The notes below the pieces were generated by a model that did not search any database, was not told the origin of the DNA, and saw nothing but the letters and a program-made list of their open reading frames with translations. The position numbers were made by a program, and so were the translations under genes. DNA of 32,305 bases from Deltaproteobacteria bacterium. Lineage in GTDB: Bacteria > Desulfobacterota > Desulfobulbia > Desulfobulbales > Desulfocapsaceae. The stretch spans positions 1-32,305 of the forward strand of contig JAFDME010000003.1 in the NCBI GenBank assembly GCA_019306075.1. Reading direction: 5' to 3'. This document shows, in pieces, positions 12,357 to 31,439 of this stretch (position 1 is its first letter; each line of letters begins with the position of its first letter).

Positions 12357-13073
12357 ATGAAAAACCAGATTTTAAAGAAAATCTACACTCTTTTTACAGA
12401 GTGGAGTTCCCATGGACAAATTGCCTGCCGCAAAGGCTGCGCCGTCTGCTGCACCAGAAATGTTACGATTACCGCCCTTGAGGGAGAGATCATCCTCCGC
12501 TTTATCATCAAACACAAGATGGCACAGTGGTTTGGTGAAAAACTGAAAGTGGAGAAGGCTCATCACCGCCCGAAGATGAGTACTAATGACTTTGCCAGGG
12601 CCTGCCTGCAGGAGAGAAACGTCGATTTTTCAGAAACACCCGGCCAGGCCCCCTGCCCTTTTCTTGAAGAAAATATCTGCCGGATCTACCCGGCAAGACC
12701 GTTCGGCTGCCGGATGATGATCTCAGAGAGAACCTGCACCGCTGATCAACCGGCTCTTCTTCCCGAGAGATACCTTGCAGCATCAACTGCGGTTACCCAG
12801 ATCATCGAGCATCTGGGCCAGAAGGAATACTGGGGAAATATGCTCGACGTGCTTCCGGCTCTCTGTGATATCAGTGAATTCAGCCCGATTTCCCGCCACC
12901 TGAGCACAGCCGACATGATGCAGGCGCGGCTGCGGACTCTCACTGCAAAACCACTGCCCGGCTTTCTCTTTACGGAGGAAGAAGAACAGACAGTTTCCCC
13001 TCTGCTGCAAACACTATTTGATACAGAAATCGAGGGAAAACGTATTGAGGATATTCTCAACGGCAACTACTGA
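12357..13073 (+). CDS. YkgJ-type cysteine-cluster protein
   Basis: CRKGCAVCC N-terminal cluster with later APCPFLEENICRIYPARPFGCRMM, typical of the YkgJ (zinc/iron-chelating) family. Confidence 0.85.
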   Translation: MKNQILKKIYTLFTEWSSHGQIACRKGCAVCCTRNVTITALEGEIILRFIIKHKMAQWFGEKLKVEKAHHRPKMSTNDFARACLQERNVDFSETPGQAPCPFLEENICRIYPARPFGCRMMISERTCTADQPALLPERYLAASTAVTQIIEHLGQKEYWGNMLDVLPALCDISEFSPISRHLSTADMMQARLRTLTAKPLPGFLFTEEEEQTVSPLLQTLFDTEIEGKRIEDILNGNY

Positions 13074-25800: not shown

Positions 25801-26948
25801 GGGCCCAGAGAGGAGTCCTGGTTTTCGACGGAGGGGAGAACTGGACAATAAAAGCTGCGGGGTCCACCCGGATGGACAGTATAGAGCTGCCTGACAACAT
25901 GGATCTTGAGCATCAAAACAGAGCGTCCAGCGCAATTATCAACTTTGTCATCCATACAGGAAGAGACATTGTCCTCAACGATGCGCAGCAGAAGGGCATG
26001 TTTACAGATGATGAGTATGTGGTCAGGAATTCTCCCCGCTCCATCCTCTGTACTCCCCTCACCCACCGACAGAAAGTGGAATGTATTCTCTATCTCGAAA
26101 ATAATCTCACCAGGCGTGCCTTCTCCCCGAAGAGGCAGGAACTCCTTCACCTCCTCGGCAACCAGGCGGCAATCAACATCAGGAACTCGCGTCTTTTCGG
26201 GGAGCTGGAAACCAGTGTAAAAGAACTCCAGATGGAGATAGAAAAACGAAGAGAGATCCAGAAGCAGCTGCTGCACTCGGAAAAGCTCAGCGCACTCGGC
26301 CGTCTCTCCTCCTCAATAGCTCACGAATTCGGCAACCCGCTCATAGGGGTGCAGTACCTTCTTACCGACTTTATGGATCGTCCCAACCTGAACCATGAAG
26401 ACCGGAAATTACTCGCACTGGGAATGGAAGAATGTGAGCGGATGAAAAAACTGCTGAAAGATCTGGGCCAGCTGAACCGGCCGACAACGGGAAAAAGAAC
26501 TCTCGCCTCCATTCACAGGATTATGGACAACGTCCTCTTTTTTCACACCAACCAGATAAAATTGCAGCAGTTGAACGTGGTGAAAAAGTATGCCCGCAAT
26601 CTCCCTGATATTGAAATAATAACAGATCAGATCAGTCAGGTACTGTTTAATCTGACCATAAACGCGGTTGATGCGACATCTCCTGACGGCGGCACGATCA
26701 CCATATCAACCCGACAGACCGAAAGTGAAATATTTCTCTCCATCAGCGACACCGGAAAAGGAATCGAGCAGCGGATTCAGAACAATATTTTTGAACCTTT
26801 CTTTTCAACAAAACGGGAAGAAGACGGCACCGGGCTTGGCCTTTCAACATCCTACGGTATTATCAAACGCCACGGAGGCGAGCTCACTTTTGTCTCAAAA
26901 CCGGGTGAAGGGACAACATTTACTCTCTCTCTTCCCCTACCTCCATAA
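22890..26948 (+). CDS. hybrid Ser/Thr protein kinase - TPR-like - GAF - histidine kinase
   Basis: STK: HRDLNPSNIVYN, VIDFGQARAG, LPYISPEQTG. GAF-like: FPDLLKKIMKIMLESSGAQRGVLVFDG...SILCTPLTHRQKVECILYLENN. HK: H-box LSSSIAHEFGNPL, N-box LTINAVDAT, ISDTGKGIE, GTGLGLSTSYGIIKRHGG. Start is TTG at 22890; a GTG at 22905 preceded by GGGAG is an alternative. Confidence 0.92.
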   Translation: MRERRVYELAHHRISEKIHHGNNSVIFRAKDTRTDRSVILKFLKNRNPGNELLRDFAREYSITASFTSDRIVKACSLEKYGNSLVMILEDCGAVSLASMISTVQKNIAWVLDIGIQLTRVLIEIHRKNIIHRDLNPSNIVYNGEKQTITVIDFGQARAGRRSDTPDKETDILSTALPYISPEQTGSYNKTIDYRTDLYSLGVTLYHLLTGIPPFASSDPMELIHLHLATLPLPPHEIDPAIPRTLSEIILKLISKSRKLRYQTCTSLLADLFRCRAEWHSDHAISTFSPGEYDLPDKLFSGKQAIAFLQEELQSRNCCHLCNIEGIGFGKNEKHEQPGTAAPDIVRQVNETLAGTRSPADRLSLIAAIVAAGTRVNEAESYETAHCFLQSGLSFLPENSWEQHYDLTLKLHIRACEAAYHTCDYQEVERLFSEVCRRASSLIDKTEVYHIRIRALKSRSRLTKAMETAREILHMLGVRLPSSPSRIFTTAQFFITRRALSGRTTADLLNLPEMRNRSKNEAMRFLVDMGTIAYHVKQELLPLIAIKGIGLTLQYGNSISAGQVAYPIYALLLCTAPGGNISKGYEYGQLALNLQQRLRPEGLDPSTLYVVTIMTVHWKEHLRRTLEPLLTAFRGCMEKSELEYAALAAHAYSYRLYYLGYNLGRAEQELSFYRTEIKKTGQQSPLHRQNIHCQAVANLTGVCSSPWQFQGDFYNEEIMIPLHEAAEDNTTLFQLYLLKAVHCFLFYSYDEALVFSDKAKKRLRSVLSSVLVPIFHFYESLILLALYRNCRPNIRLRYRFRINANQRKMKLWSSHSPKNYQHKFRLVEAEKARVQENSSRAMNLYDSAINLARTNSYLQEEALACELASRFYISLDKVHLALPYLHEARHCYYRWGAIAKVRQLDQQKPLKTATSDGQTASSDFTPHTFPQGEEGSNFNMATVVKASRILAEETTFPDLLKKIMKIMLESSGAQRGVLVFDGGENWTIKAAGSTRMDSIELPDNMDLEHQNRASSAIINFVIHTGRDIVLNDAQQKGMFTDDEYVVRNSPRSILCTPLTHRQKVECILYLENNLTRRAFSPKRQELLHLLGNQAAINIRNSRLFGELETSVKELQMEIEKRREIQKQLLHSEKLSALGRLSSSIAHEFGNPLIGVQYLLTDFMDRPNLNHEDRKLLALGMEECERMKKLLKDLGQLNRPTTGKRTLASIHRIMDNVLFFHTNQIKLQQLNVVKKYARNLPDIEIITDQISQVLFNLTINAVDATSPDGGTITISTRQTESEIFLSISDTGKGIEQRIQNNIFEPFFSTKREEDGTGLGLSTSYGIIKRHGGELTFVSKPGEGTTFTLSLPLPP

Positions 26949-27441
26949 ACAACGGATCCTTAGACAGCTCCACCACCCTCCACTCATCCCCCTCATGATC
27001 AAAATCGGCAATTTTATCAATATCCATTTTCAGGTACTTTCCTCTTCCCTCAATGGCAACAGTACCGTCTGCAAGAAGAATCTCACCAACCCCGGTAAAG
27101 GAACGACTTCTCTCTTTTTCAATCCGGGCTACCACTTTGATCTCACTGTCAAGGGGTACCGGTTTTCGCAGTTTCATGGAAAAATCCAGAGTTACACCCC
27201 AGATGTTGTCCGAATGGGTCAGCATAATCGCCCGACCGATAGTTTCATCAAGGATAGTGGCGGCAATACCGCCATGCAAACGACCGGGGTATCCCTGGTG
27301 TTCTTCCAGGGGAGTGAAAACAGCCACTAACAGTCCACCCTCCAGCTCGTAAAACCTGCTTTTCAGACCAAATTTATTTTCCAGCCCGCAGACAAAGCAC
27401 ATCTTTGAATTGGGCTGCTTTTTTGTCACTTTTAAACGCAT
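26920..27441 (-). CDS. PaaI/hotdog-fold thioesterase family protein
   Basis: KMCFVCGLENKFGLKSRF, then GRLHGGIAATILDETIGRA (HGG hotdog motif). Confidence 0.85.
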   Translation of the reverse strand: MRLKVTKKQPNSKMCFVCGLENKFGLKSRFYELEGGLLVAVFTPLEEHQGYPGRLHGGIAATILDETIGRAIMLTHSDNIWGVTLDFSMKLRKPVPLDSEIKVVARIEKERSRSFTGVGEILLADGTVAIEGRGKYLKMDIDKIADFDHEGDEWRVVELSKDPLFMEVGEERE

Positions 27442-28061
27442 GAGTTCCTCTCACAATGTGGAATAGGGAGAACGGGTGGGCCCTTCACAATCATTTCAGC
27501 AATCGTCATCTTCACCCTCGGCAGAAGGTGGCGCCTGTTGTCAAGCAGTTCACTTTCCAGCAGCGCCAGCCGGCGCAGCATCGGTGTTCTTTCAACCGAC
27601 AGTGATGGAACATCCTGGTCGCCAACGATCTCCTGGCAGCGAAAACAACCGGGAAACCTCAACACCCTGCCGTCCGGCCGCATCATGGTTGCCGGTACCC
27701 CATGGGTGCGGCAGACAAGCATCCGGTGTTCATAAAGAATACAGAGTCCCCCCTTATTCAGGGGACACATTGACTGCGGTCGCTCACCTTCACTCTCCGC
27801 CTGCCTGCACTGCCTGATATAGTCCCGTGATTTCTCCAGAACTTCATCCTGTTGTGCCGGATCAAGTTCCTGAAAACCGAGCTGGAGATATGCCCATTCA
27901 GCATAGGTGTGGTGCAGAAAATAGGAATCACAGCAGTTATCCGGACAGCCGGCACAGGAAAAATTGAGCTGCTCCGCCACATTATCATACTCACGTCCCA
28001 GCTCTTCATATATCTGCCGTAATCGCCGAAGCATATCTTTTGAAAGCACAACATCCCTCAT
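27432..28061 (-). CDS. YkgJ-like cysteine-cluster protein
   Basis: NFSCAGCPDNCCDSYF followed by MCPLNKGGLCILYEHRMLVCRTHG. Confidence 0.75.
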   Translation of the reverse strand: MRDVVLSKDMLRRLRQIYEELGREYDNVAEQLNFSCAGCPDNCCDSYFLHHTYAEWAYLQLGFQELDPAQQDEVLEKSRDYIRQCRQAESEGERPQSMCPLNKGGLCILYEHRMLVCRTHGVPATMMRPDGRVLRFPGCFRCQEIVGDQDVPSLSVERTPMLRRLALLESELLDNRRHLLPRVKMTIAEMIVKGPPVLPIPHCERNSCV

Positions 28062-28639
28062 CCCGTTTCCTCCTTAAAACAGAGAACACGGTAAGTGCTT
28101 ACCTCAAGCTGTCTTTCTCTCCAGGCCGTTTTTTCCAGCCCCGCCTTCAGACAGAGCTGATCCAGAAACTGCTCAGGAGATGGCAGCTGCTGCCAGACCT
28201 GGGGAAGAAAGGTTGCTCCCCGGCTGCCCTCTCTTATAGTCACTCCATCAGTCCCCGGCTGTAATTTTTGCGGTAAATCAGCAGGATCCTGGAAATCAAG
28301 CGGAACAGAGGGAGTAAGGACGGAAATATCAATCTCCACACTGTCCATCTCCCCGCGGCTGAGAGGAGAAAATCTTCGGTCCCTGAAGGCGGCATTCACC
28401 GCATTGTCGCAAACACTCTGCCACAGCGAAACAGCAGGCTCGAGGGTTCCAATACACCCCCGCAGTCTGCCGGAAATTTTAAGAGTGACAAATGTCGCTG
28501 CCTTTCTGGAAAAAACCGGGTCTTCGGGCATATCCGGCAACTCTTTCTCCCCATTCAGCCGATCGGAGACGACCTTTCTTGCAGCCTCCAGCAGCTGTCT
28601 CCGACGGGCGGATGTCAACCCTTTCTCTGTCCGCTCCAT
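28058..28639 (-). CDS. AMMECR1 family protein (AmmeMemoRadiSam protein A type)
   Basis: FVTLKISGRLRGCIGTLEPAVSLWQSVCDNAVNAAFRDRRFSPLSRGEMDSVEIDISVLTPSVPL; GVTIREGSRGATFLPQVWQQLP. Confidence 0.94.
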   Translation of the reverse strand: MERTEKGLTSARRRQLLEAARKVVSDRLNGEKELPDMPEDPVFSRKAATFVTLKISGRLRGCIGTLEPAVSLWQSVCDNAVNAAFRDRRFSPLSRGEMDSVEIDISVLTPSVPLDFQDPADLPQKLQPGTDGVTIREGSRGATFLPQVWQQLPSPEQFLDQLCLKAGLEKTAWRERQLEVSTYRVLCFKEETG

Positions 28640-29670
28640 TCAACCCCCAGCATCATACAGTTGATACCACTGCCAATACCAAGCAGGGCGCCTTTCTTTC
28701 CCGGCTGAAACACACCCTGCTCAATCGCCATAGCCATGGTGACGGGAGCGGAAACAGACCCCACATTCCCCAGGGTTGCAAGGGTTGCAAAGTTCTTTTC
28801 CGGTGCCAGCTCCAGCTGCTCAAAAAGCAGCCTTGCATGGGCTGAACCAACCTGGTGACAGAAGAAGTGATCAATATCATCCCCCTGCCAGCCGGGATTT
28901 GCAGAAAACTCGCGCCAGGTAAGAAGAGCCGTTTCAACACCGCGAGTCAACAGCTCCTCCGAATTTGTTGCCATCAGGGTTATATTCTGACCACTCTTCT
29001 CCCCGTGGCAGAGGTCGGAGTGAGCGGTGTTCGCCTTCCAGGCACCGCAGACCAGGCGGGGCTTCTTTTCACCCTTCTCAGCCCGCCGCATGAAAAGGCC
29101 CATGGACCCGGAACCTATTGTCAGTGAAGCAAAGGCCGGTTTTATGCTTTTCCTGGTAAAAGTTTTATCATCCCGCAGCGATTGCAGGGTGGACTCAAGC
29201 AGTTCTTCGGCGGTCTCACCGGAGACAACCAACCCGTTCTGTACCTGCCCAAGCTCTATCATACTGGCCAGCACCACCATTCCATCAAGAAATCCGAGGC
29301 AGGCATTGGATATATCGAAAATAAGGCAGGAGGAGGAAAGCCCAAGACTGTTATGCACAAAAGAAGCTGTTGCCGGTTCCATCATATCCCGCGATACCGA
29401 GGAAAAAATCAGACACTCGATATCTTTCGCATCAATATTTCCATTCGCCAGAACTTTTTCCCCGGCATGAATCGCTGCCTCACTGGGCCTGGTACCCTCC
29501 GGCCACAACCGCCTCTCCCTGATACCGCTCATCAGTTCAAGCCTCCCCCGCGGCAGGTGTAACCGGTCGTAAAGAGGAGACAGCCGATCCTCAATTTCTT
29601 CAGATGTAATTACCCTGGGAGGGAGCTGGTAGCCAAAAGTGTCCAGACAGACGTGAGAATAGTGTATCAT
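28615..29670 (-). CDS. OleA-like / FabH-superfamily ketoacyl synthase (thiolase fold)
   Basis: FDISNACLGFLDGM (Cys), FFCHQVGSAH (His), LGNVGSVSAP (Asn), SVSRDMMEPATAS, LLGIGSGINCMM. N-terminal SEEIEDRLSPLYDRLHLP...GIRERRLWPEG resembles OleA more than housekeeping FabH (recalled comparison). Confidence 0.82.
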   Translation of the reverse strand: MIHYSHVCLDTFGYQLPPRVITSEEIEDRLSPLYDRLHLPRGRLELMSGIRERRLWPEGTRPSEAAIHAGEKVLANGNIDAKDIECLIFSSVSRDMMEPATASFVHNSLGLSSSCLIFDISNACLGFLDGMVVLASMIELGQVQNGLVVSGETAEELLESTLQSLRDDKTFTRKSIKPAFASLTIGSGSMGLFMRRAEKGEKKPRLVCGAWKANTAHSDLCHGEKSGQNITLMATNSEELLTRGVETALLTWREFSANPGWQGDDIDHFFCHQVGSAHARLLFEQLELAPEKNFATLATLGNVGSVSAPVTMAMAIEQGVFQPGKKGALLGIGSGINCMMLGVEWSGQRKG

Positions 29671-29750: not shown

Positions 29751-31439
29751 TCAGCAGGAAACCGGCTCAAGGTGCATCCTGATCTTCTCTTCCGTCAGGG
29801 GAGTGGCGATATAGTCATCAACACCATGTTCCAGACATTTATCCTCATCCTCCCCACCACCCAGCCCTATGACTGTTGCCCGTTTACCGGAGTAATCCTC
29901 CAGCTGCCTGATGCTTTCCACAGCCTTGAGACCTTCCAGTTCCGGTGAAGCGGTATCAAGAACAACAAGATCAAAATATGACAACGCGGCCTCATACATG
30001 GCAGAACGCCTGGTTTCAGCAATGGTCACCCTCCAGCCGGACTCAATAAGAGTGTGAACAAGGGATTGCTGAGTCTCAACCTCATTTACCACCAGCAGAG
30101 CCCTGCTGGTGAGATATTTATTCAACAGGTCGACAAGCTGGTCTCTTTCCACCGGTTTCGGCAGGTAATCATCCATCCCCGCCTGCAAACACTTTTCACG
30201 ATCTCCCTGCATGGCAAGAGCCGTCAGGGCTATTATCGGCAGATGACCACCATTTTTCCTCTCATATTCTCTTATTTTCCGGGTGGCCTCCAGCCCATCT
30301 GTCTTCTCCATCTGGACATCCATCAGGACACCATCATAGTCTCCGCCGCACCCTTCCTGCACAGCCTCATCCCCGCTCTCGACACAGACCACCTCCATAC
30401 CAAGCTGCTGAAGGACGGTTTCCACAAGCACCCTGTTTATATACTCATCCTCCGCCAGAAGAATTTTTTTCCCTTTAAGTCCGTAGGTGGTTCTCTCTTC
30501 AATATTCTCAAGAGCCCTGTTCCCCTCCTCCGCCAGGGAAAAGCCGGTCGCCTCCTTCACCGGAAGAGTAAAACAAAAGGCGGAGCCGGAGGAATCACTG
30601 TCGAATTCAATAGTGCCGCCCATGATCTTAACAAGCTGAGAGACTACTGTCAGCCCCAGTCCCGCCGAGCCCACCACCAGGGGTTGCGGAGCATAGTTAC
30701 TCTGTTTTTTTCCAAAATAACGGGTAATAACCTTCCGGGTACTTTCAGTTATGCCACAACCGGTATCGGCAATCGTGAACTTCAGCAGCAGGTTGTTATT
30801 GTTATCGTAACCGCTCTGTTCAATCTTTATCGAGACAGACCCGATATCTGTGAATTTAATGCCGTTGTCCACCAGGTTAACCACCACCTGAACAAGCCTC
30901 TCCCGGTCTCCATGTATATATGACGGAACACTGGGATCTATATGGTAAAGAAGCTTCAAACCTTTCTCCTGAGCGGCCAGCCGCAGGAGGTAAAGATCAT
31001 GATCAAGGCTCTCCTTCAGATCAAAATCCTCCTTTTTCAGGTCAAGCTGTCCGGACTCGATCCTGGAATAATCGATGACCTGATTTACCACCCCCAGCAG
31101 CCGCTCCACAGAGAGATTAACCATCTCCATATATTCTTTCTGCTCTCCCGACAGTCCTGTCTCCATGGCCAGACTGGTCATACCGACAATACCGTTCATC
31201 GATGACCTGATCTCATGGCTCACATTTTCAAGAAAATTATTTTTAATATGGCTCGACTGGTCAGCAAAGAACCGCCCCTGGTCCCCGGACGAATCCTGTA
31301 TATCACGGTCATCAAAGGAGTGACCCTTCACCACTGCCCTGAAAGCCATCTTCTTCAATGTGCTGTTGGTTTTTTTCTGCCTGTCCAGCTGATCCTTTAA
31401 TACCTCGACCTGTTGCTGCAGTTTTTCAGTTTCAGTCAC
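29751..31439 (-). CDS. cytosolic hybrid histidine kinase with two receiver-like domains
   Basis: H-box ENVSHEIRSSMNGIVGMT, N-box VVNLVDNGIKFTD, IADTGCGI, AGLGLTVVSQLVKIMGG; REC1 ILLAEDEYINR...GVLMDVQMEKTDG...ALTALAM...YLPKP; REC2 degenerate. No TM or PAS/GAF input domain seen. Confidence 0.92.
   Translation of the reverse strand: MTETEKLQQQVEVLKDQLDRQKKTNSTLKKMAFRAVVKGHSFDDRDIQDSSGDQGRFFADQSSHIKNNFLENVSHEIRSSMNGIVGMTSLAMETGLSGEQKEYMEMVNLSVERLLGVVNQVIDYSRIESGQLDLKKEDFDLKESLDHDLYLLRLAAQEKGLKLLYHIDPSVPSYIHGDRERLVQVVVNLVDNGIKFTDIGSVSIKIEQSGYDNNNNLLLKFTIADTGCGITESTRKVITRYFGKKQSNYAPQPLVVGSAGLGLTVVSQLVKIMGGTIEFDSDSSGSAFCFTLPVKEATGFSLAEEGNRALENIEERTTYGLKGKKILLAEDEYINRVLVETVLQQLGMEVVCVESGDEAVQEGCGGDYDGVLMDVQMEKTDGLEATRKIREYERKNGGHLPIIALTALAMQGDREKCLQAGMDDYLPKPVERDQLVDLLNKYLTSRALLVVNEVETQQSLVHTLIESGWRVTIAETRRSAMYEAALSYFDLVVLDTASPELEGLKAVESIRQLEDYSGKRATVIGLGGGEDEDKCLEHGVDDYIATPLTEEKIRMHLEPVSC

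Follow-up and report, generated by a model that had tools for sequence, protein, structure and literature searches.

The closest described relative of the gene considered here is OleA of Xanthomonas campestris, an organism whose ole region includes a PF03692 gene of unknown role (PMC7064751). A sequence pattern for OleA has been published, EPxx[AS]x(14,18)DxxNACL (PMC7158056). Ketones are the output of OleA alone when OleBCD is absent (PMC6463001), and in some Actinobacteria, OleACD clusters that lack OleB make β-lactones (PMC7064751). Two published surveys retained just those OleA homologues whose oleBCD lay no farther than about 5 kb or six genes away (PMC7158056, PMC7064751). Because linked oleBCD was required, the oleA genes of a split pathway would be discarded, and a family with such an arrangement would have dropped out of both surveys. 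A search of the available literature for Ole in Desulfobulbales, or for AMMECR1 in connection with Ole, found nothing relevant.

Here, we describe a candidate of this kind in a window of 32,305 nucleotides, by which we mean the whole stretch of DNA that was analyzed. It constitutes contig C51 of assembly G000, which totals 3.07 Mb and is 85% complete. The reading that we consider most likely, with high confidence, is that the OleABCD olefin pathway is a normal one whose genes are divided between two loci. In essence, OleA would condense two fatty acyl thioesters head-to-head, yielding a 2-alkyl-3-ketoacid, with Cys124 carrying the acyl chain that is bound first and the partner subunit contributing Glu98 to the condensation. 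OleD would then reduce the keto acid, OleC would close the β-lactone, and OleB would decarboxylate it to a long-chain internal olefin. One locus would comprise oleA together with the genes for AMMECR1 and a CxxCxxCC protein, and the other oleB-oleC-oleD, followed in the family of the window (f1, most likely Desulfocapsaceae) by the gene for an M48-TPR protease.

Membership of the OleA family

The ORF at 28615–29670 (minus strand, 351 aa) scores 434.4 bits against the NCBIfam profile PRK09258/NF006720 (cut-off 285, E = 3e-130) and, judged by that score, the match is not due to chance. The NCBI name for this family is 3-oxoacyl-ACP synthase III, which bears out the suspicion, raised in the sequence-only reading, that the gene is liable to FabH-type misnaming. 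That name, and the superfamily that these enzymes have in common (PF08541 and PF08545 are both above cut-off on the ORF), might be taken to mean that the gene encodes FabH, another KAS III of primary fatty acid synthesis, or an HMG-CoA synthase. Such an assignment is virtually inconceivable, however, given that the models for FabH, HMG-CoA synthase, and other KAS III enzymes all fall below their own cut-offs in profile searches (102 bits for FabH, the cut-off being 292) and that both the tree and the sequence pattern described below already contradict it.

The motifs SNACLGF, CHQVGSAH, LGNVGSV, and SVSRDMMEPATAS are each found in the translation of the ORF. In an alignment, Cys124, His272, Asn302, and Glu98 correspond to Cys143, His285, Asn315, and Glu117 of OleA and are invariant in 14 orthologues, in keeping with the earlier claim of a catalytic Cys, His, and Asn accompanied by the glutamate of OleA. 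The Glu98 column is occupied by Asp in entry 5vxh, the E117D variant of OleA, and Glu98 therefore takes the Glu117 position. The published OleA pattern lies at residues 98–125; it is present in 56/56 OleA rows and is missing from the FabH rows (0/9).

A structure model built from the 14 orthologues (pLDDT 87) gives the same answer. Its best 28 fold matches, with TM of about 0.9, are all Xanthomonas OleA entries (27 from X. campestris together with 3fk5 from X. oryzae, which was deposited as FabH), and the first FabH, with TM of about 0.8, ranks after all of them. As regards the two channels that would take up long acyl chains, the comparison covered the fold as a whole, which agrees with OleA. 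The closest solved sequences are likewise X. campestris OleA, its mutants, and a single entry from Xanthomonas oryzae that was deposited under the name FabH. Phylogeny, which had been suggested as a check, separates OleA from FabH at 100/100 and places the window sequence within OleA, nested in the f1 clade. Separate FabH homologues of the Desulfobulbales fall outside the OleA clade, again at 100/100. Profile, fold, tree, and pattern agree with the original proposal of OleA rather than FabH, and at the level of family, ORF 28615–29670 is confirmed on sequence grounds as encoding a true OleA, which is presumably catalytically active.

The remaining pathway genes

No oleB, oleC, or oleD was found among the ORFs that flank oleA within the window, just as had been noted; these ORFs encode a hybrid histidine kinase, AMMECR1, a CxxCxxCC protein, and a hotdog thioesterase. 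The earlier contention that the product is left open by this lack does not hold, because oleC and oleD are found elsewhere in the same genome. In profile searches, the 3′ part of oleC (340.9 bits) was located at base 5 of contig C130, adjoined by oleD (401.5 bits), such that the contig begins within oleC and continues with oleD and then the gene for the M48-TPR protease. The whole-genome search that the sequence-only reading had proposed was thus successful for oleC and oleD and failed to find oleB. The latter was found in neither this assembly nor that of G001, a member of the same genus, and the oleC-bearing contigs of both break inside oleC.

In the sister genome G002, oleB, which encodes a haloalkane-dehalogenase-like hydrolase, precedes the same order of oleC, oleD, and M48-TPR protease gene. 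Because oleB is directly upstream of oleC in five of the six other sampled genomes of the genus, and the contig of the sixth (G001) is also broken inside oleC, the simplest and most likely reading is that oleB of G000 was lost in the contig break, and we infer that it lies in the unassembled gap. The breaks within oleC in both G000 (L046) and G001 (L056) may point to a sequence feature that hinders assembly. Also, the gene immediately after oleD encodes a TPR-containing M48 protease resembling BepA in 11/11 of the f1 oleC loci examined (L046–L056; for example, L046:1811-3220 and L048:4516-5925).

An OleA that stands alone would offer a different outcome, in which its keto acid decarboxylates to a ketone without an OleBCD step. 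The window without oleBCD, the failure to find OleB in this assembly, and the formation of ketones by OleA when OleBCD is lacking (PMC6463001) are all compatible with it, but it is highly unlikely in a genome that has oleC and oleD on a contig starting inside oleC and whose congeners carry oleB as set out above. Furthermore, the presence of OleA, OleB, and OleC is coupled across the order. Among 144 Desulfobulbales genomes, all three are present in 112 and none in 18, and the association between OleA and OleC gives a Fisher p of 7.7e-14 (a value that ignores relatedness, the 144 genomes not being independent). On the other side, five incomplete members of f1 have OleA without OleB or OleC.

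The absence of OleB from an assembly that is 85% complete could also be read as the sign of a β-lactone pathway, for which the OleACD clusters of some Actinobacteria (PMC7064751) provide a precedent and in which no olefin would be formed. This is extremely unlikely: oleB is adjacent to and upstream of oleC in 79 of the 80 f1 genomes that have both, and the assembly break falls exactly at the place expected for oleB. With oleC and oleD elsewhere in the same genome, and a contig break as the most likely reason for the missing oleB, the product of the OleABCD pathway is probably the usual one, predicted to be a long-chain internal olefin. A profile search for PUFA synthase as the source of the acyl chains found PfaA above cut-off in 0/97 genomes; this candidate was rejected, and ordinary fatty acid synthesis is therefore the probable source of the chains.

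Origin of the split arrangement

Adjacency of oleA and oleB is seen in 0/77 f1 genomes, 0/8 genomes of its sister family, f4, and 27/29 of other families. In f1, the two genes are on different contigs in 71 of the 77 genomes and far apart on one contig in the remaining 6. The split is probably also that of the cultured strains Desulfopila aestuarii DSM 18488, Desulfoprunum benzoelyticum DSM 28570, and Desulfosediminicola flagellatus IMCC35005; NCBI places Desulfosediminicola and Desulfopila in Desulfocapsaceae, which is why f1, a family of marine sulfur bacteria, is most likely Desulfocapsaceae. The clustered arrangement is probably ancestral, because at most of the OleA loci sampled elsewhere in the phylum, outside the order, oleB adjoins oleA. 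Families f1 and f4 are joined in the OleA tree (99/91), which suggests one split event, and this clade was kept, at the same support, after removal of the KAS III L002, which in the first tree had been an outlier on a long branch. The f1 and f4 grouping is not resolved in the OleC tree and is weak in the OleBCD concatenation (76/61), and an AU test on the clustered families gave p 0.085. The chemistry does not depend on linkage of oleA to oleBCD, although such linkage is the usual state.

Neighbors of oleA and a co-inherited reductase

In both f1 and f4, oleA is the first gene of a tight operon, followed by the only AMMECR1 gene of the genome and then by a gene for a CxxCxxCC protein. AMMECR1 adjoins oleA in 54/57 f1 genomes, 4/4 f4 genomes, and 0/19 others. 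In the window, it is encoded at 28058–28639 (minus strand; AmmeMemoRadiSam system protein A, 193 aa; TIGR04335 201 bits, cut-off 99), the sole copy in the genome, and the first 25 nt of its gene overlap the 3′ end of oleA. Normally present in single copy, AMMECR1 is widespread in the order, as is Memo, and curated models label it just as a hypothetical equivalog. Its candidacy as a dedicated component of the pathway is weakened by this wide distribution and by its occurrence in 12 genomes without OleA; a role as an Ole-specific enzyme is therefore unlikely.

The CxxCxxCC-type cysteine-cluster protein (27432–28061, minus strand, 209 aa), whose gene overlaps that of AMMECR1 by 4 nt, was rejected as a member of PF03692, its match of 17.1 bits being below the cut-off of 23; a structure search found no solved relative. 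A second CxxCxxCC (PF03692) protein gene is present in the window at 12357–13073 on the plus strand. Overlapping the first by 10 nt is the gene for a hotdog-fold thioesterase of the 4HBT type (26920–27441, minus strand, 173 aa; PF03061 36.8 bits), which has the THEM2/THEM4 acyl thioesterases among its nearest solved structures and occupies this downstream position at some of the f1 loci. Upstream of oleA, across a gap of 80 nt and on the same (minus) strand, a hybrid histidine kinase is encoded at 29751–31439. It belongs to a syntenic block in many f1 loci and is probably outside the Ole pathway.

A FabI-like SDR is strongly conserved across the Desulfobulbales (for example, G000:C107:8822-9628 (L210), L011:2547-3356, and L058:9153-9956). 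It retains a Tyr-x6-Lys pair, the typical FabI motif. In f4 and the clustered families, its gene is the immediate upstream neighbor of oleA; in f1, it has been relocated and is about 5–90 kb from oleA (by coordinates, in the contiguous genomes compared). The reductase is co-inherited with OleA, being present in 113/122 genomes with OleA and 3/22 without it (Fisher p 3.5e-14, relatedness ignored). At clustered ole loci (L058:9153-12654, L061, and L181), genes for FabI-, FabZ-, and FabG-like proteins and a CrtI-like FAD oxidoreductase are located upstream of oleA.

As a tentative and rather doubtful extension, the Ole pathway of the Desulfobulbales might have extra members that have so far escaped recognition, namely the FabI-like reductase, gained and lost together with OleA, and, in f1 and f4, the AMMECR1 and CxxCxxCC pair, which would be co-expressed with OleA and assist or regulate it, leading to a modified olefin or to a metal-dependent control of the initial step. 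Testable leads on auxiliary steps are provided by the FabI-like gene, given its co-inheritance, and by the AMMECR1 operon, which also gives AMMECR1 a context. Should the family indeed form long-chain olefins, biogenic hydrocarbons would have an overlooked source in these bacteria of marine sediments.

Comparison with known systems

X. campestris OleA (PDB 3row and mutants) matches the window protein in full-length fold and sequence, and the Cys, His, and Asn and the equivalent of Glu117 are kept, but the two are 36% identical, which predicts neither chain length nor product. The X. campestris gene sits in an oleABCD region (PMC7064751), whereas the oleBCD that would serve the window oleA is at another locus. 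A gene for a cysteine-cluster protein lies near oleA in both cases, although that of the window matches PF03692 below cut-off. Clustered oleABCD loci elsewhere in the Desulfobulbales and in the phylum at large (e.g. L058, L061, and L183) have an orthologous OleA and the same OleB and OleC families, as well as, within the order, the same OleD family. What distinguishes them is the position directly after oleA, which is taken by oleB-oleC at the clustered loci and by the AMMECR1 and CxxCxxCC genes in f1 and f4.
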